6,478 nucleotides of DNA, taken from positions 1 through 6,478 of the forward strand of contig JASUTF010000024.1 of the NCBI GenBank assembly GCA_030445695.1, written 5' to 3'. Below, one piece after another: positions 2 through 6,478 of this stretch. Under the pieces are notes generated by a model, which saw only the letters and a program-made list of their open reading frames with translations, was not told the DNA's origin and made no database searches. Position 1 is the first letter of the stretch; each line of letters opens with the position of its first letter. A program made the position numbers and the translations under genes. The DNA is from Candidatus Iainarchaeum sp. (lineage in GTDB: Archaea; Iainarchaeota; Iainarchaeia; JAADDC01).

Positions 2-706
2 CTGGAGGCGGAGGGCGGCAGCGTCAGGGAGGGGGAGATCATAGGGATAATCGGGCAGAACGGCATAGGAAAGACCACCTTCGTCAGAATGCTGGCGGGA
101 GAGATAGAGCCGGACGAGGGTGAGGTCCGAACGGAGCTGAAGATATCCTACAAGCCCCAGTATATAAACCTCCCTGACAGGCCGGTTTCAGAACTGTTCA
201 TGGAAGAGGACATCGACAGGCCCTTCTTCGAGTCAGAGATAAAGCGTCAGCTGGAGATAGACAAGATATGGGAGAACAACGCAGCCGAGCTGTCGGGCGG
301 AGAGAGGCAGCGTGTGGCCATCGCCCTCTGCCTGTCAAGGGACGCGGACATATATCTTCTGGACGAGCCCTCTGCATTTCTGGACGTTGACCAACGTCTT
401 ATCGCCTCAAAGCTCATAAAACGCGTCATAGCCAACAGGAAGAAGGTGGGCTTCGTCGTGGAGCACGACATCGTGATGATGGACTACGTGTCGGACCGCC
501 TCATCGTGTTCTCCGGAGAACCAGGGCGACACGGCCACGCATCAACGCCGATGCCCATGCGGGACGGCATGAACGCGTTCCTAAAAGAGCTGGGAATCAC
601 GTTCCGTAGGGATCCCCACACGGGACGGCCGCGGGTGAACAAAGAGGGATCCCAGAAGGACGTGGAGCAGAAGAAAAAGGGAGAGTATTACTATATGGGG
701 GCGTAA
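2..706 (+). CDS. rli: RLI/ABCE1 ribosome-recycling ATPase, C-terminal part (5' truncated)
   Basis: The reading frame is open from the window edge, so only the last 234 residues are visible. They cover the second nucleotide-binding domain of a twin-ABC soluble ATPase. Numbered from the first full codon, I see Walker A GQNGIGKTT (18-26), a Q-loop in YKPQYI (50-55), the signature LSGGERQR (97-104), Walker B DIYLLDEPSAFLD (116-128) and the switch histidine in VVEHD (about 155). The tail after VFSGEPG, ending in a KKKGEYYY patch, matches RLI and not a transporter ATPase, and no membrane segment is present. In this family the full protein is about 590-600 residues, with N-terminal [4Fe-4S] domains that are not visible here. 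It splits ribosomes into subunits after termination or rescue, with aRF1 or Pelota. The 3' end overlaps the convergent TctA-like gene by 16 bp. Family assignment is very secure. Confidence 0.97.
   Translation: MEAEGGSVREGEIIGIIGQNGIGKTTFVRMLAGEIEPDEGEVRTELKISYKPQYINLPDRPVSELFMEEDIDRPFFESEIKRQLEIDKIWENNAAELSGGERQRVAIALCLSRDADIYLLDEPSAFLDVDQRLIASKLIKRVIANRKKVGFVVEHDIVMMDYVSDRLIVFSGEPGRHGHASTPMPMRDGMNAFLKELGITFRRDPHTGRPRVNKEGSQKDVEQKKKGEYYYMGA
669..680 (-). terminator. T-rich tract after the TctA-like gene
   Basis: The minus strand reads CCTTTTTCTTCT beginning about ten bases past the TctA-like stop at 691. It is antisense to the lysine run of RLI. Such a tract could terminate the minus-strand operon before it runs antisense into RLI. 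No stem is visible. Confidence 0.35.
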
Positions 707-1791
707 TACGCAAGGGTGGGGAGTAGTAGGAAGAACATGGCTACTCTCTTTTCCACACCGAGCAGATGGGTTAGCGTTCCAGCACACATCATCGAAACGG
801 AAAGGAGCAGCCCGGGAATACCCGAAAGCCCGTAAGATACTGCCAGGACAGTAAAAACGGCTACAACTTTCAATAACCTTCTCGAATAGAGCGAGTAAAG
901 AGCTCTGGACAGGAGCAAAAGCAATAAAACGCCTGTCGACACGCCAAAAGCAAGGGACGCGAATACCCTTGGGATATAAGGCGTCTCCGGAAGTCCAGCA
1001 GCAAAAGAGGAGCGCACGAGACCATATACCTTCCCCGCAGCCGTCAGAAAAAGGGAAGACGAGGCGGAAGATCCAGTAGCCACCATCATCTCCTCGTCAC
1101 GCACGCGGAAGAGCGGCTGGATCATGAAAGCAGCCACAGAAAGAGACACTGCGGGGAAGTAAGCAATGACAAATGCGGTGATGAAACCGAAAAGGCCACC
1201 GCGCAACAGGGAATTAACGTTAAATCTCCCTTCCCTCCCGTAACGGAAGCGCTCTCGCGAAAATAAAGCGATAAGAACCGTAGAAGCACCGAACAGGGAC
1301 GCGATGGAAATGGTGAGCGGCTGCGAAACAGGGAAGGGCGTCTGGAGAACGATAATACCCAATGTTCCATACATTGTAGCCAGCAGAGCAGCCATTAAAG
1401 GATTCCTGGAGCGCAGGACCGTCAGAACCGCCACGAAAAGGAGGAAAAGGAACATCAAAACGGCAGGAAGACGGATCGATAGTAGATCAGTCAGGGGATA
1501 ATAGAAAAGTGGAAAGAGAATCCCAAGAAGCGCACCCGCAGCATATAAGAGAAGAGCATGGGCACCCCTGCCCCTGCGCACGAGGCGGTGGGCAACAATG
1601 GCAGTATATGCAGTCACGGACGAGAAGGCACCGAGGAAAACGGAAGGAAGGGAAGAGAGAGCAGAATAGATACCGTAAGCGACGGAGATGCTGACTTCCG
1701 ACGAGAAGGGAAGAAGAAGGGGGTGGAGACCGGGCAGCAAAGCCGTGAGAACGCCCTTAAGAAGCCCCTCAGCAATATCGGAGGATAACAA
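691..1791 (-). CDS. TctA/DUF112-like multi-pass membrane protein, divergent short form
   Basis: This 366-residue protein is almost entirely hydrophobic, with roughly nine or ten predicted membrane segments. The motif ALLPGLHPLLLPF (about 17-29) resembles the GLxPGIHPN loop of archaeal TctA-type (COG1784/DUF112) proteins. PSVFLGAFS (about 49-57) and AHRLVRRGRG (67-76) match the family's PSIFLGAP...GHRLLLxGRG block. The C-terminal LLGVEKRVAMFFLLLPTL resembles the family's final LxGVRRxHxMGVLLxPT stretch. The Asn of PGxHPN and the Pro-Glu after FLGA are replaced, so substrate chemistry may differ from tricarboxylate transport. No TctB or TctC partner is visible. An open frame extends to 2013, but its first 74 codons only shadow the OB-fold gene. 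I chose TTG at 1791 because a GAGGTGA site lies 8 bases upstream and hydrophobic homologous sequence begins there. The start overlaps the OB-fold gene by 23 bp, implying translational coupling. The substrate is unknown. Confidence 0.8.
   Translation of the reverse strand: MLSSDIAEGLLKGVLTALLPGLHPLLLPFSSEVSISVAYGIYSALSSLPSVFLGAFSSVTAYTAIVAHRLVRRGRGAHALLLYAAGALLGILFPLFYYPLTDLLSIRLPAVLMFLFLLFVAVLTVLRSRNPLMAALLATMYGTLGIIVLQTPFPVSQPLTISIASLFGASTVLIALFSRERFRYGREGRFNVNSLLRGGLFGFITAFVIAYFPAVSLSVAAFMIQPLFRVRDEEMMVATGSSASSSLFLTAAGKVYGLVRSSFAAGLPETPYIPRVFASLAFGVSTGVLLLLLLSRALYSLYSRRLLKVVAVFTVLAVSYGLSGIPGLLLSVSMMCAGTLTHLLGVEKRVAMFFLLLPTLAYYAPI
721..754 (+). terminator. Possible stem and T-tract after RLI
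   Basis: GAGTAG (721-726) and CTACTC (741-746) are exact reverse complements with a 14-base loop. TCTTTTCC follows at 747-754, including four T. The position just after the RLI stop is right for a terminator, but the stem is short and lies in TctA-like coding sequence. Confidence 0.3.
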
Positions 1792-2101
1792 TCTCCGGCT
1801 CACCTCTCCAGATCTGGACGCGTCCTTCCACGCATGCGTAACCCGTCGTGCATTCTTCCGTGCCGAACTCCACGGCACGGGCCGTGCCGTCCGACTCGAT
1901 CCTGTAAACGCACATCCCTTCCGACGTGTACATAGGGGAAAGAATGCCCCTGACAGTAACACAGTTTCCCACGTACTTCCCGATGTCCTTTGGAGGAACT
2001 GCCGGGCAGTCATAGAAGATCAGAATGGAGATGAATGACAGCAAAGATAGCAGGAACGCCAGAAACGCTATGAAACGCCTGTCAACCTCCAACAAGAACA
2101 A
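1769..2101 (-). CDS. Membrane-anchored, cysteine-rich OB-fold protein
   Basis: This small protein, up to 110 residues, has one N-terminal hydrophobic segment (about 10-30) preceded by the charged stretch EVDRR. By the positive-inside rule this places the rest outside the cell membrane. Residues 41-107 read as a single OB-fold barrel: NCVTVRGILSP resembles strand 1, and YACVEGRVQIWRGEPEIVI resembles the closing strands of tRNA_anti/RecJ-like OB domains. Six cysteines (32, 47, 64, 84, 90, 110) stand out against cysteine-poor neighbours. OB folds bind single-stranded nucleic acid or oligosaccharide; which one applies here is not visible. The start is uncertain. TTG codons at 2101, 2095 and 2092 are in frame, but none has an upstream Shine-Dalgarno site. 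The only good one (GGAGGTTGA, 2082-2090) lies inside the frame, and the nearest codon after it is ATA at 2071. The gene overlaps the peptidase gene by 20 bp if the 2101 start is used, and overlaps the TctA-like gene by 23 bp. Confidence 0.75.
   Translation of the reverse strand: MFLLEVDRRFIAFLAFLLSLLSFISILIFYDCPAVPPKDIGKYVGNCVTVRGILSPMYTSEGMCVYRIESDGTARAVEFGTEECTTGYACVEGRVQIWRGEPEIVILRYC
1800..1806 (-). promoter_or_regulatory. Ribosome binding site deciding the TTG start of the TctA-like gene
   Basis: GAGGTGA lies eight bases before TTG 1791, inside the end of the OB-fold coding sequence. It supports a 366-residue product and not the 440-codon open frame, and it implies coupled translation of the two genes. 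Confidence 0.7.
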
Positions 2102-2996
2102 TGGGAAGAAGTAGTATATAAGCGATGAGCACGAAGGGAACGAAGGGCATCGTGGTCTTTACCGGGAGCTCATTTACGCCAATTTCCTTCAGCCACTTTA
2201 TGTCCTCCCGGTAAAGACCGGCAGCGCGCAGCGGGTTTATCCTCACCCGTATCCTGCCCGTCTCAACGAGAGCAGCAGTTGCCCACGAGAAGGGCACAAT
2301 TCTCCCGTCCTCCAGCACAAAATCCACCGGAACGTCCCCCTCTCTTAACTCCTCGACACGCTTAACCCTCCGGAACACGCGTGAACGCATGGAGAGGAGT
2401 TTAAACGAAGAGGAGAGGATAAAGAGCACAAGGAACGCCTTAATGAATCCGGCACTTGGGGAGTAGAGAAGGACGGCGATCGCGGACAGCACGTCTCCGG
2501 GAAACGGCAGGAACGTGAAGAGGAGGGCGAAAACCCCGAAGACAGGGGCCAGAACAGAAAGAACAAAGGACTTCGCCACTATGGGGCGGAGAGAACGCAG
2601 GAAGTCCGTGCGCAGGTCCCTATCGACAAGGACACGGTAAAGTAGATATGGAACGGTAAGAAAGAATGCAGAAAACAGTGATGCGAGGAAGAGTGCAAGG
2701 GGGAAGGGGACGGACACTCCAAAGAGGGATACGGAGTACGGGTTCAGCGATGCGAGGGCTGTGAAGAGTTTTACATCGCCACCGGCCCAGAGACCCATGC
2801 GGTAGAACAGATACGCCAGAAGAAGGGTCACGGACACGTAGAGAAGAACGGAGTAGTCCCCCTGCAGAAGCCAGAGGATAATTCCGATCATCGTCCCGGA
2901 GTATGTGAGCCAGTCAGGTATCCTCCTCTCACGAATGTCAAAGATGGCCGCGATGAAAAGAGCTAATACAGAAACAAAATGCACCAAGTGGATCAT
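2082..2996 (-). CDS. Archaeal A24 prepilin peptidase (EppA/PibD-like)
   Basis: This 304-residue integral membrane aspartic peptidase is predicted to cut the short positively charged leader from class III pilin precursors at the cytoplasmic membrane face. The first catalytic aspartate is in FDIRERRIPDWL (Asp20), the usual D...IP context after transmembrane segment 1. The second is in WAGGDVKLF (Asp74), the archaeal equivalent of the GxGD motif. About six more hydrophobic segments follow. A soluble insert (about 205-280, with LREGDVPVDFVLEDG and GLYREDIKWLKEIG) precedes a final membrane segment, PFVPFVLIAYILLL. That arrangement fits the C-terminal extension known from archaeal A24 peptidases (type II, as in EppA-like enzymes; recalled, not searched). 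The ATG at 2996 is the most upstream start, and no Shine-Dalgarno site precedes it, so translation may be leaderless. It lies directly downstream of its likely substrate gene, and its 3' end overlaps the OB-fold gene. Confidence 0.92.
   Translation of the reverse strand: MIHLVHFVSVLALFIAAIFDIRERRIPDWLTYSGTMIGIILWLLQGDYSVLLYVSVTLLLAYLFYRMGLWAGGDVKLFTALASLNPYSVSLFGVSVPFPLALFLASLFSAFFLTVPYLLYRVLVDRDLRTDFLRSLRPIVAKSFVLSVLAPVFGVFALLFTFLPFPGDVLSAIAVLLYSPSAGFIKAFLVLFILSSSFKLLSMRSRVFRRVKRVEELREGDVPVDFVLEDGRIVPFSWATAALVETGRIRVRINPLRAAGLYREDIKWLKEIGVNELPVKTTMPFVPFVLIAYILLLPIVLVGG
2114..2123 (-). promoter_or_regulatory. Possible internal promoter for the OB-fold and TctA-like pair
   Basis: GCTTATATAC, a good archaeal TATA match, lies inside the last codons of the peptidase gene. 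Its centre is about 28 bases before a GGAGGTTGA site (2082-2090), nearly the same geometry as at the pilin. It may give the last two genes their own transcript. It also encodes part of the peptidase's final membrane helix, so it could be coincidental. Confidence 0.3.
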
Positions 2997-3048: not shown

Positions 3049-3249
3049 CTATATCACAGCGTTAATATTTTCTATGACCTCATTCGCCTCGGTAACAAGT
3101 TTGTTCACACCTTTGCCAATGGTTTCGTTCACGTCCCTCGCGCCGCTCTGAACACCAGTGGTAAGCATGTAGATCACGAGCACCGCAAGGATAACTACAC
3201 CACCTACGAGCAGGAGATACTCAAAGGTTGTCTGACCGCGATTATCCAT
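3049..3249 (-). CDS. Class III signal-peptide type IV pilin
   Basis: This 66-residue preprotein begins MDNRG, then QTTFEYLLLVGGVVILAVLV. That is the class III (DUF361-like) signal: a charged leader of five residues, expected cleavage just before Gln6, Glu at mature position 5, then a hydrophobic helix of about 20 residues that packs the filament core. The mature pilin would be 61 residues, small but usual for Epd-type pilins. The remaining 30-odd residues (VNETIGKGVNKLVTEANEVIENI) look helical and carry one NET sequon (Asn41), a possible N-glycosylation site as in other archaeal pilins. The frame is open up to 3381, but I chose ATG 3249 because a full GGAGGTGAT lies three bases upstream and the leader begins there. 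It has its own TATA box, so it is probably transcribed strongly on its own. It is the likely structural subunit of the pilus built by the flanking genes. Confidence 0.93.
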   Translation of the reverse strand: MDNRGQTTFEYLLLVGGVVILAVLVIYMLTTGVQSGARDVNETIGKGVNKLVTEANEVIENINAVI

Positions 3250-3301: not shown

Positions 3302-4201
3302 TTAGCCGCCAAGCATGGACGCCACAAGGGCTGCAGTTCCCTTGAGCACGAGGTACGCCACGAGCATGAAAATGGGCGCATATCTGACCCCTGAAGATGC
3401 CCTTCCCTCCCGTATCACGGTAAGCATAATGGCTGAAAGTGCTGCCTGGAAGAGCACGTAAAACGTGAGGAACGTCTGAACAATACCCAGGGCCCGCATG
3501 GAATCTGCAAGCTGCTCGGGAGAGATGACTGAAGTTCCCGCAAAGGCCTTCCCCATGGTCGAAAAGAAGCGCATTATACCAAAAGCGGCACCCACAATGA
3601 AGGGAGATAAGAAAGTGGACGAAACAACGAGGAACATGGACTGCATGGTGGTCTTTGCCTTGCGCTCCTCCATGAGACGGTAGGTCTGGCGAGCATCCTC
3701 TGCCACGTCCTCGAGAACCTTTGCAAGACCACCTCCGGCATGGAACGCGTCCACGATTATTGTCACGACACGTTGCACAAGTTCAGAGGGCACCCTGGAG
3801 GCAAAGCGGCCGAGGGCCACATCAATAGTGTTGCCACTCTGCAGATCGTCAAGGACGTATCTGAATTGCTTCGAAAGCGGACCGTAGTCAGAGGAGACGA
3901 CTTCCCGAACTGCCATCTCAAAAGTGCCGCCTGATTGAAGCGTGGATGCGATCTGCTTCAGCGCATCTGATATGTTCTCGTCAATGCTGGAGAGGACCTG
4001 GACTCCCTTGTAATAGGGATAAAACACGATGATGTCCGCCACCACGAGACCTATCAGAAATGGCAGTATGTCCCCCACAATAACGGAGAGTAGGATGGAG
4101 ACGATTATGACCAGCGTACCAGAAAGTACGAGCAAGCGAGGGTCTGTGCGGATCCCCGCAAGACGCAGGTGCTGTGCATATTTCTTAAGATATCGATTCA
4201 T
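3302..4201 (-). CDS. tadC: TadC-like pilus platform protein (T2SSF domain)
   Basis: This 299-residue membrane protein carries one type II secretion F domain (about 78-205). It would form part of the inner-membrane base on which the ATPase acts during pilin polymerisation. Two membrane helices lie at about 23-42 and 45-62. A cytoplasmic helical domain follows, with the family pattern SSDYGPLSKQFRYVL (103-117), an intervening SGNTIDVALGRFASR and DAFHAGGGLAKVLEDVAED (151-169). Further helices lie at about 187-210, 238-262 and 273-295. It is paralogous to the upstream TadB-like protein: both carry the DYGxLSxxFR...GG(N/G)L pattern. ATG 4201 is four bases after the upstream stop, with GAGGTGA overlapping that stop, so the two platform genes are very probably coupled. 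No cysteines are present. A full-length archaellum FlaJ/ArlJ would carry two such domains in one chain, which argues for a Tad/Epd-like pilus. Confidence 0.92.
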   Translation of the reverse strand: MNRYLKKYAQHLRLAGIRTDPRLLVLSGTLVIIVSILLSVIVGDILPFLIGLVVADIIVFYPYYKGVQVLSSIDENISDALKQIASTLQSGGTFEMAVREVVSSDYGPLSKQFRYVLDDLQSGNTIDVALGRFASRVPSELVQRVVTIIVDAFHAGGGLAKVLEDVAEDARQTYRLMEERKAKTTMQSMFLVVSSTFLSPFIVGAAFGIMRFFSTMGKAFAGTSVISPEQLADSMRALGIVQTFLTFYVLFQAALSAIMLTVIREGRASSGVRYAPIFMLVAYLVLKGTAALVASMLGG

Positions 4202-4205
4202 TCCC

Positions 4206-4212
4206 TCACCTC
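4206..4212 (-). promoter_or_regulatory. Ribosome binding site of the TadC-like gene
   Basis: GAGGTGA ends in the TGA stop codon of the TadB-like gene and sits four bases before ATG 4201. The shared bases indicate stop-restart coupling, which would keep the two platform proteins at matched levels. Confidence 0.75.
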
Positions 4213-5360
4213 ATGGGATCCGACGATTTAACGAAGAACAGGAACAGCAACAGGAATCCTGGGAAGAAAACAAGGTACATCGCTGCCAAAAGGCGCGGAT
4301 CCAGCTGGAATGCCCTCAAAAGCTCCGAGCCCGTGGGTGCGTAACCAATGGTTGTGATCATGGCGAGCATGACGGGGAAGACCACCGCAACGAACATGAA
4401 AATAACGCTGAAGAAGTTCAGTTTTTCCCCGTATGCTGCCACCTTCATCCTCTGTTCAAAGGAAACGTCACTGGCGACGTTCATTATCGCATCCGATAGG
4501 TTTCCACCAATCCTGACTGCCCTAAGAATATTCGCAATGGCACGGCGCATGCCTTTCGACCTCATGCGGGCTGCAAGGTTGGAAAGGGCGACCTCCGTGG
4601 ACTTCCCCTCATCAATCTCACGGAGCGTTCTCCTGAACTCCTCGGACAGAACACCGTAATCCGCCTCTGCAACGGCGCGCATCGCCTGGTAAAGACCCAT
4701 GCCCGCACGTATCTCAACTGCCAGATGTCGCAATGCGAAGGGCAAATACTTCTCCGCTGCCCTGGAACGACCGGCAGCCCGGGACCGCGGATAACTACGA
4801 CCGAAGACGTATACAAGCATGAAGACAACGAAAGCAACGGCCAGTGGCCCAAGGGTTGCAAAGACCGGGCCCTTCTGTATGAAAATTGGAATGGAGAGCA
4901 GGAACGAAACAACAGATAGAATAGTGGCAAGGACAAGTATAAACGCAAGGTACTGAAGGCCTGTAAAAGGCAGGTTCGCCGCGTAAAGGTCCCAGTCAAG
5001 CTCCTTTATGTACTTCTGATCCGCAAGTTTTCTCAGCAAACCGTCGAAGAATCCCTTGAATGCCATATATATCCGTCCCACAGTCCTGATGACGGGGGAC
5101 TCGTAATCAACAAGGTCTTCCGGAGAACCGGATATGGTAATGGTGGGGGCGAGAATGTCTTTTATATCCACCTCGCTCTCTTCCAGTTCGTCTTCCTTGA
5201 TGTATGCGCCCTCTTCCTGATACTTTTCCTGCAGTCGGCGGAGTATCTCGTCGACACTCTCTATCTGCTGCTTCTTTGGAGTATGCTGTGGTTTTTTCTC
5301 TTTTTTCTGACCCTCCACAATCTGTTTCTTGATATCATCCCATTCTACTTCGTCCGCCAA
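4206..5360 (-). CDS. tadB: TadB-like pilus platform protein (T2SSF domain) with long N-terminal extension
   Basis: This 384-residue protein has an unusual hydrophilic N-terminal region of about 100 residues, rich in Lys, Glu and Gln, including a likely coiled-coil stretch (about 34-66, IESVDEILRRLQEKYQEE). Two membrane helices follow (about 134-160 and 165-187), then a cytoplasmic T2SSF domain (about 207-332) with EADYGVLSEEFRRTL and RIGGNLSDAIMNVASD, and two C-terminal helices (about 313-336 and 357-378). It should pair with the TadC-like protein as the platform of the pilus motor. The start is TTG at 5360. A GGAGG site lies ten bases upstream, and the next methionine (residue 99) would delete the whole extension. 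The gene overlaps the ATPase 3' end by 16 bp. The extension may contact the ATPase, but that is inference. Confidence 0.9.
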   Translation of the reverse strand: MADEVEWDDIKKQIVEGQKKEKKPQHTPKKQQIESVDEILRRLQEKYQEEGAYIKEDELEESEVDIKDILAPTITISGSPEDLVDYESPVIRTVGRIYMAFKGFFDGLLRKLADQKYIKELDWDLYAANLPFTGLQYLAFILVLATILSVVSFLLSIPIFIQKGPVFATLGPLAVAFVVFMLVYVFGRSYPRSRAAGRSRAAEKYLPFALRHLAVEIRAGMGLYQAMRAVAEADYGVLSEEFRRTLREIDEGKSTEVALSNLAARMRSKGMRRAIANILRAVRIGGNLSDAIMNVASDVSFEQRMKVAAYGEKLNFFSVIFMFVAVVFPVMLAMITTIGYAPTGSELLRAFQLDPRLLAAMYLVFFPGFLLLFLFFVKSSDPMR

Positions 5361-6478
5361 CGCTTTTCCGCCTCCATGTAATATTCCTGCACCGCTTTCT
5401 TGACGGAATGCATGTCACGCTTCCCTGATTCCATTAAACGGCGAATAAAATCTTCACGGCGCTTCCACTCGTCCATTAGCTCATCCACGCTCAACCCGGT
5501 AAACTCCGCGAGCTTGGTAATGTAAACGATGTTCTCGTCCACCTGCACCATCTCATCCTTGGCAGCATCCCACGAGAAGATTGTGAACACCTTTGGCTCG
5601 TGATCCACATCACGGACCTCTGCAAGTTCCACCACCCTGCGGATTGTCCCTTTCCTGCGGTCATGTATGCGGTTCTGCACGATTATGAAGTCGAGGGCGG
5701 TGGCCATAACCTTCGGGACGCTCATTGGGGGAGAAACGATACGGACTATCGTCTCCTCTGCGCTGTTGGCGTGAATCGTGCCCATAGAACCGTCGTGACC
5801 CGTGTTCATGGCTGTGAAGAGGGTAAATGCCTCGCTGTGGCGCACCTCACCCACAATGATGCGATCAGGGCGCATGCGCAGGGCATTCTTGACGAGGATG
5901 TCCATGGAAATTTCTCCTGTCCCTTCTATGCTGGGTGGGCGTGCTTCCAGCCGGACCCAGTGCTCAAGGGGGAGGTTTAGCTCAGCCGTGTCCTCTATGG
6001 TGATAATGCGCTCGTGAGCAGGTATAAACGCCGCAAGAACGTTCAGAGTTGTTGTCTTACCAGATCCCGTGCCGCCTGCAACGAGTATGTTCGCGGGCTT
6101 GGCACCCATTCCGTCCACTGCAAGCCAAAGAAATGCGGCCAGCCGTGGATCGAACGTTCCAAAGTTTATGAGATCTACAACGGTGTAGGGGTCTTTTCGG
6201 AACTTGCGTATGGTGATCGTTGAACCGTCCACCGATGCGGGCGGGATCGTGGCGTTGACACGGGACCTATCGGGGAGACGGGCGTCCAGAAGCGGGTGAA
6301 CAGCATCGATGTGGCGGTTCACGTCGCGAGCTATCTTTTCTATAATGTTACGGATTTCCTGATCCTCGTAGAACACAACGTTGGTCTTGCACATCCCATA
6401 CTTCCTGTGATAAACGTAAACGGGTTTCATGGGGCCGATTACCATGATCTCCTCTAGGTACTCGTCAGAGACAAGGGG
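5345..6478 (-). CDS. tadA: TadA/FlaI-type pilus assembly ATPase (5' truncated)
   Basis: The frame stays open to the window edge, so 377 C-terminal residues are visible of a protein usually about 500-600 long. An internal ATG at 6445 is not the real start, because family sequence (DEYLEEIMVIGPMKPVYVYH) runs through it. It is a hexameric PilT/VirB11-superfamily ATPase powering pilin insertion at the cytoplasmic membrane. Counting from the ATG at 6445, Walker A is GGTGSGKTTT (124-133), the Asp box is ITIEDTAEL (148-156), Walker B is RIIVGEVRH (195-203) and the His box is GHDGSMGTIHANS (216-228). YHRKYGMCKTNVV near the visible N-end is typical of archaeal secretion ATPases. All catalytic motifs are intact. 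The C-terminal 60 residues are charged and helical. The gene heads the pilus operon as far as is visible; its promoter lies outside. Because two separate platform proteins follow, I favour a Tad/Epd-like pilus over an archaellum. Confidence 0.95.
   Translation of the reverse strand, partial: PLVSDEYLEEIMVIGPMKPVYVYHRKYGMCKTNVVFYEDQEIRNIIEKIARDVNRHIDAVHPLLDARLPDRSRVNATIPPASVDGSTITIRKFRKDPYTVVDLINFGTFDPRLAAFLWLAVDGMGAKPANILVAGGTGSGKTTTLNVLAAFIPAHERIITIEDTAELNLPLEHWVRLEARPPSIEGTGEISMDILVKNALRMRPDRIIVGEVRHSEAFTLFTAMNTGHDGSMGTIHANSAEETIVRIVSPPMSVPKVMATALDFIIVQNRIHDRRKGTIRRVVELAEVRDVDHEPKVFTIFSWDAAKDEMVQVDENIVYITKLAEFTGLSVDELMDEWKRREDFIRRLMESGKRDMHSVKKAVQEYYMEAEKRWRTK
5371..5375 (-). promoter_or_regulatory. 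Ribosome binding site of the TadB-like gene
   Basis: GGAGG lies ten bases before TTG 5360, inside the last codons of the ATPase gene. Spacing is slightly long but acceptable, and no other start codon in this frame would keep the N-terminal extension. Confidence 0.5.

Follow-up and report, generated by a model that had tools for sequence, protein, structure and literature searches.

A conserved pair of OB-fold and TctA-like genes at the tail of an archaeal type IV pilus operon is a likely DNA-uptake module

The window, that is the whole stretch of 6,478 nucleotides that was analysed, comprises positions 1 to 6,478 of contig JASUTF010000024.1 of Candidatus Iainarchaeum sp. (assembly GCA_030445695.1). 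Its minus strand contains a type IV pilus operon, and the genes for an OB-fold protein and a TctA-like membrane protein are located at the tail of this operon. The following features were assigned:

2-706, plus strand: end portion of an RLI/ABCE1 gene, convergent to the pilus operon and the OB/TctA-like pair
691-1791, minus strand: TctA-like multi-pass membrane protein, 366 aa, named after its orthologues; proposed transport subunit of the putative DNA-uptake pair
1769-2101, minus strand: OB-fold protein, 110 aa, single-pass with an N-terminal TM helix, apparent TTG start, named after its orthologues; OB domain predicted to be extracytoplasmic
1769-1791, minus strand: 23 bp shared by the OB and TctA-like genes, which are likely to be translationally coupled
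2082-2996, minus strand: archaeal prepilin peptidase (Peptidase_A24, EppA-like; PF01478 1.1e-12; NF053826 EppA 5e-12, below cut-off)
3049-3249, minus strand: class III signal-peptide prepilin (RGQTTFEYLLLVGG; PF04021 5e-8)
3302-4201, minus strand: pilus platform protein, T2SSF, the second of two (PF00482 3.7e-18)
4206-5360, minus strand: pilus platform protein, T2SSF, the first of two (PF00482 1.2e-21)
5345-6478, minus strand: FlaI/TadA-type T2SSE pilus assembly ATPase, cut by the window edge (PF00437 3.8e-49; NF058587 1.6e-88, below cut-off)

The original prediction had described two genes that overlap by 23 bp and lie directly after the prepilin peptidase gene. All of this held, and the open reading frames were found at the place and on the strand that it had given. 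The peptidase gene and the OB gene share 20 bp. Homology of the TctA-like protein starts at the ATG at position 1791, which yields the 366 aa given above; a longer open reading frame (440 aa, ATG at position 2013) was considered and rejected, because no homologue reaches so far. Overlap or near-zero spacing of the two genes was found to be the norm across the phylum, and in the window the 23-bp overlap probably couples their translation.

Taken alone, neither the OB protein nor the TctA-like protein of the window had a meaningful match in Pfam, NCBIfam or the PDB, and the latter was too divergent for the TctA family PF01970. Its top Pfam match was TgpA_N, which at 19.2 bits remained below the cut-off of 30 and was rejected as a membrane-composition match. 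The names OB-fold and TctA-like are used because orthologues in the same phylum match these families, and not because the window proteins themselves do. PF01970 was matched by 29 of 34 aligned orthologues of the TctA-like protein (best E 1.8e-58), and the orthologue at locus L057 matched it over the full length. About 10 TM helices are predicted for the window protein, and the residues P20, H23, F167, P213, R260 and P358 were invariant in the alignment. A PDB sequence search with the TctA-like profile gave no match. AlphaFold2 was applied to each of the two window proteins alone and yielded poor models, with mean pLDDT values of 53.6 and 51.4, which were too weak for a comparison with ComEC or TctA.

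The OB family was characterized in the same way. PF01336 was matched by 23 of 32 aligned members (best E 2.2e-13), and a single N-terminal hydrophobic or TM helix was predicted in all 32. In the window protein this helix spans residues 10-28 and is preceded by VDRR, and the OB domain is therefore predicted to be located outside of the cell. When the OB profile was compared with the PDB, the best match was to RPA32/Rfa2 of archaea and yeast, which are subunits that bind single-stranded DNA (E about 1e-5). STN1 came next, and the OB domains of tRNA synthetases matched more weakly. This fold match may be taken as a hint of nucleic-acid binding, and it is no proof. Sugars and proteins are also bound by OB folds. 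The OB proteins of the window family (window positions 1769-2101; L028, L029, L031, L032) contain several cysteines that are absent from most orthologues. These residues could form extracellular disulfides or a metal site, which is an inference from sequence alone.

The adjacency survey proposed with the original prediction was performed within the phylum, which we take to be probably one of the DPANN lineages. The set consisted of 87 genomes, 25 of them high-quality, and comprised mostly draft assemblies of one class with sizes of 0.3-1.5 Mb. A single-sequence search detected a TctA-like gene in 36 of 55 genomes; with a profile search the count was 69 of 87, and 23 of the 25 high-quality genomes were among them. 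Six of these 69 loci are cut by contig ends (G004, G007, G035, G056, G071, G077), leaving 63 that could be evaluated. At 59 of them, from many families and including the window, an OB gene was present directly upstream of the TctA-like gene on the same strand and in the same order. The spacing between the profile matches ranged from -17 to +111 bp in these 59 genomes. Order, strand and near-zero spacing show that the pairing of the two genes is not a chance arrangement. The true exceptions without an upstream OB gene were G001, G040, G081 and G086. In G001, which belongs to the same genus as the window genome, the TctA-like gene overlaps the peptidase gene directly (L027:8903-10908) and the genome yielded no OB gene at all; the partner gene was apparently lost.

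The position of the pair relative to the pilus genes could be determined at 57 loci with enough upstream sequence to place the peptidase. A pilus peptidase gene was found at most 4.5 kb upstream of the pair at 46 of these loci. A location of the pair mostly away from pilus genes would have refuted the original prediction, and this was not observed. At the remaining 11 loci the peptidase gene is located elsewhere (G013, G014, G016, G017, G018, G022, G025, G030, G032, G045, G055). The adjacency of the OB and TctA-like genes was kept in all 11 genomes, and thus the bond between these two genes is tighter than their bond to the pilus. A match to the A24 peptidase was present in 83 of 87 genomes. 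Three genomes of one genus (G020, G026, G042) have kept the pilus peptidase and lack both the OB and the TctA-like gene, and represent a natural contrast, i.e. pilus function without the pair. A Fisher test of the TctA-like gene against the pilus-type peptidase (p = 1.6e-4) was given no weight; it is confounded by genome incompleteness and kinship, and the peptidase list was thresholded by the analyst.

Several further genes were noted in the vicinity. Many genomes contain two class III minor-pilin-like genes between the peptidase gene and the OB gene. A DUF2101 (PF09874) membrane protein is encoded directly upstream of the OB gene at L033:7897-8526, L034:10969-11538, L036:10937-11500, L039:8747-9277 and L044:10957-11523, and it keeps this position even at loci where the pair is away from the pilus genes. 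It could be a third component of the module. A JAB-domain (PF14464) gene is located directly downstream of the TctA-like gene at L057:7571-7960, and genes of similar size are found at this position in many genomes of the class; no JAB-domain-like gene was seen near the window. Genomes of the same genus encode a second full-length FlaI/T2SSE-type ATPase of about 510 aa several kb away, beyond the RLI gene (L027:3037-4560, L028:14364-15890, L030:2014-3549), which might be a second pilus motor.

The relation of the TctA-like proteins to canonical TctA was analyzed with a thin sample of three plasmid sequences (Parasedimentitalea, Salipiger, Halalkalicoccus), and the alignment is approximate at such a distance. 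In these controls a gene for TctC or a substrate-binding protein adjoins TctA in three of three cases, and TctB is also present in two. In contrast, neither TctB nor TctC was seen beside the OB-linked TctA-like genes in the neighbourhoods that were read. The GIPG[T/S/N] motifs that are present in both halves of the canonical sequences are not conserved in the OB-linked proteins. Instead, the first repeat contains P-G-x-H(-x-N), with the His in 100% of the sequences, and K-[TS]-R-[TS]-G is found near the second GIPG site, with an Arg that is invariant in 34 archaeal and two cyanobacterial sequences. A FastTree analysis separated the OB-linked group, including the cyanobacterial proteins, from the three canonical TctA (support 0.93, branch length 2.19 substitutions per site). 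Identification as a canonical carboxylate transporter was the second outcome that would have refuted the original prediction, and with the GIPG motifs not conserved, its sequence part was not met.

The cyanobacterial sequences originate from a protein search of 72,556 plasmids with a TctA-like orthologue, which gave two matches at E <= 1e-3, on plasmids of Cylindrospermopsis curvispora (NZ_CP060823.1, L095:3171-7349) and Pseudanabaena galeata (NZ_CP112877.1, L096:3865-6359). On both plasmids a gene for an OB protein with two PF01336 matches is located directly upstream of the TctA-like gene, and no pilus genes adjoin the pair. On the Cylindrospermopsis plasmid a NERD nuclease-related gene follows next after the TctA-like gene. 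The co-location with the pilus genes that the original prediction had noted is therefore not what the case mainly rests on, since the two genes remain paired after loss of the pilus link and are also paired on the cyanobacterial plasmids. A search of a phage collection gave no match, and a scan of genome contigs retrieved only one fragment, which was from the same genus.

According to the original prediction no nuclease was visible, which is true of the window only. The same genome encodes an SNase-fold protein on another contig (L107:2036-2581, plus strand, G000:C24; PF00565 2.4e-9). It is N-terminally anchored or secreted, and its sequence contains a hydrophobic helix at the N-terminus and the motifs VDGDT and DRYGR. 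Its best NCBIfam match, below the equivalog cut-off, is EcnA, a calcium-activated nuclease, which is reported to be a transformation nuclease of M. maripaludis. SNase is encoded in four of five genomes of the genus but in only 21 of 87 in the phylum, and therefore a nuclease step is no general feature of the phylum. A dedicated DNA-pulling motor was not identified.

Genetic evidence for the function of such a pair exists for methanogens. Fonseca et al. (2023; PMC10133366) screened Methanococcus maripaludis for the loss of natural transformation. The genes recovered were those for the pilus, for a thermonuclease and for an archaeosortase, a MinD-like gene and its neighbour, and MMJJ_13020-MMJJ_13030. 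The latter two form a putative operon and encode a protein with one TM helix and an OB fold (MMJJ_13020) and a TctA-like protein with 11 TM helices (MMJJ_13030). Deletion of either gene abolished transformation, and each mutant was complemented in trans. A homologue of MMJJ_13030 is essential for transformation of Methanoculleus thermophilus, pili are needed in both methanogens, and the thermonuclease is needed in M. maripaludis (PMC10133366). The authors proposed MMJJ_13030 as the DNA transporter, because archaea are without a recognisable ComEC (PMC10133366). In agreement with this, ComEC (PF03772, Competence domain) was detected in none of the 87 genomes of the phylum, while 10 bacterial controls were positive. 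Two traits of the archaeal transformation pair were confirmed here: the gene next upstream of the TctA-family gene encodes an OB-fold protein with one TM helix (59/63 loci), and the genome also encodes a class III type IV-like pilus (the window operon).

Taken together, the pair is likely to be a DNA-uptake module like the one for which methanogens provide genetic evidence; in this lineage, represented here by an uncultured MAG, DNA uptake is inferred, without an experiment. The genes, their order, the predicted topology, the phylum-wide pairing, the loss of the carboxylate-transporter motifs and the absence of ComEC rest on the data presented here. The following mechanism is proposed. The pilus encoded by the rest of the operon would bring extracellular DNA to the membrane, where the membrane-tethered exterior OB domain would bind it, probably as single strands, as inferred from the fold and the genetics. 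The OB domain would then hand the DNA to the TctA-like protein, a step that is inferred because the pairing is near-obligate, and the TctA-like protein would contribute to the passage of the DNA through the cytoplasmic membrane. The module would thus work like ComEC and yet be built from unrelated parts, as two proteins. The function in this lineage, DNA as the OB ligand, the channel role of the TctA-like protein and the order in which the steps occur are all inferences. The comparison with ComEC had been made in the original prediction, which combined an exterior OB domain, a multi-pass protein and a type IV pilus to a DNA capture system. As a conserved module this is well supported; the role as a channel is unproven. 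That the TctA-like protein itself forms the channel, a hypothesis shared with PMC10133366, falls a little short of being probable.

Several observations speak against the uptake reading. The OB and TctA-like proteins of the window are divergent, G001 has no OB gene between the peptidase and the TctA-like gene, three genomes keep the pilus peptidase without the pair (G020, G026, G042), and OB folds also bind sugars and proteins. Of the alternatives, the one that survives best is that the pair is an accessory of pilus maturation and builds or decorates the pilus, e.g. by transporting a precursor (glycan or lipid) while the OB domain binds an oligosaccharide, so that the defects of the methanogen mutants would be indirect effects of pilus loss. 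In favour of it, the pair is part of the pilus operon in most genomes, OB folds can bind oligosaccharides, and a term search in PMC10133366 found no report on the piliation of the OB and TctA mutants. Against it, the pair is still together in the 11 genomes in which it is away from the pilus locus, on the cyanobacterial plasmids it has no pilus genes beside it, and it is missing from the three genomes that keep the pilus peptidase. This explanation is thus unlikely. Very unlikely is nutritional import, in which DNA or oligonucleotides would serve a reduced-genome and probably host-dependent archaeon as a nucleotide source and not for recombination. The near-universal presence of the pair in a phylum of small genomes, the absence of ComEC and the identity of the parts with those of a DNA-uptake module are compatible with it, while methanogens with the pair recombine or maintain imported DNA; the present data do not separate nutritional import from natural transformation. 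An ordinary organic-acid (tricarboxylate) permease that is merely located beside pilus genes is supported by the full-length PF01970 match of orthologues and is also very unlikely, given the OB partner in place of TctB/TctC in the neighbourhoods read (canonical TctA have TctC and mostly also TctB), the non-conserved GIPG motifs with an invariant Arg near the second, the long branch to the three canonical TctA (2.19 substitutions per site, support 0.93) and the requirement of archaeal members for transformation (PMC10133366).

The DNA-uptake module remains the preferred reading. ComEC homologues have not been found in archaea, and a TctA-like protein next to an OB-fold protein had emerged from one genetic screen; a survey of archaeal T4P systems (PMC4858521) did not mention the pair by the terms searched. 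The idea of DNA capture, which the original prediction had reached from gene order alone, is the same as that of PMC10133366. A whole archaeal phylum of small genomes keeps both genes together, mostly beside a pilus operon, and the pair is also present on cyanobacterial plasmids, which therefore defines a cross-domain module open to biochemical testing. The pair is a strong contender for the DNA-import machine that has been missing in archaea, and natural competence, or the use of DNA as food, may on this view be a trait of many uncultured archaea. It is tempting to speculate that OB-TctA represents a second, ComEC-independent DNA-import translocon, in which an RPA32-like OB protein would act as the exterior receptor and a repurposed TctA fold as the channel. 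This translocon would be found across the archaeal phylum, in methanogens and on some cyanobacterial plasmids, and within the phylum its genes would accompany those of its own DNA-catching pilus. For this bolder reading the balance of the evidence is at present slightly unfavourable.

A comparison with known systems places the pair as follows. With TctA of TctABC it shares the superfamily (PF01970 in 29/34 orthologues), while it differs in the OB partner gene, in the lack of the GIPG[T/S/N] motifs and in that no TctB/TctC was seen in the neighbourhoods read. The cyanobacterial pair has the same gene order and the motifs PG-x-H-x-N and K-S-R-S-G in the TctA-like protein, and differs from the archaeal pair by two PF01336 matches in the OB protein, the lack of adjacent pilus genes, the NERD gene (Cylindrospermopsis) and the bacterial hosts. 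The resemblance to ComEC is restricted to the presumed way of working, in which an OB domain, here predicted to be exterior, and a protein with several membrane passes would act in concert with a type IV pilus; in the OB-TctA pair the OB and membrane parts are separate proteins, a fused nuclease domain is lacking, and the membrane part belongs to the TctA superfamily. From MMJJ_13020/MMJJ_13030 of M. maripaludis JJ the window pair differs in that it forms the tail of a pilus operon, whereas the methanogen pair stands apart from the pilus genes (MMJJ_08190-08290), and in that the window TctA-like protein of 366 aa is too divergent to match PF01970 alone. Orthology of the two pairs is inferred from family, topology and gene order and not from a direct sequence comparison. 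Both organisms have class III pilins, an EppA-type peptidase and a thermonuclease and no ComEC, and in both a single-TM OB-fold gene adjoins a gene for a TctA-like protein, with 11 TM helices in the methanogen and about 10 predicted here.
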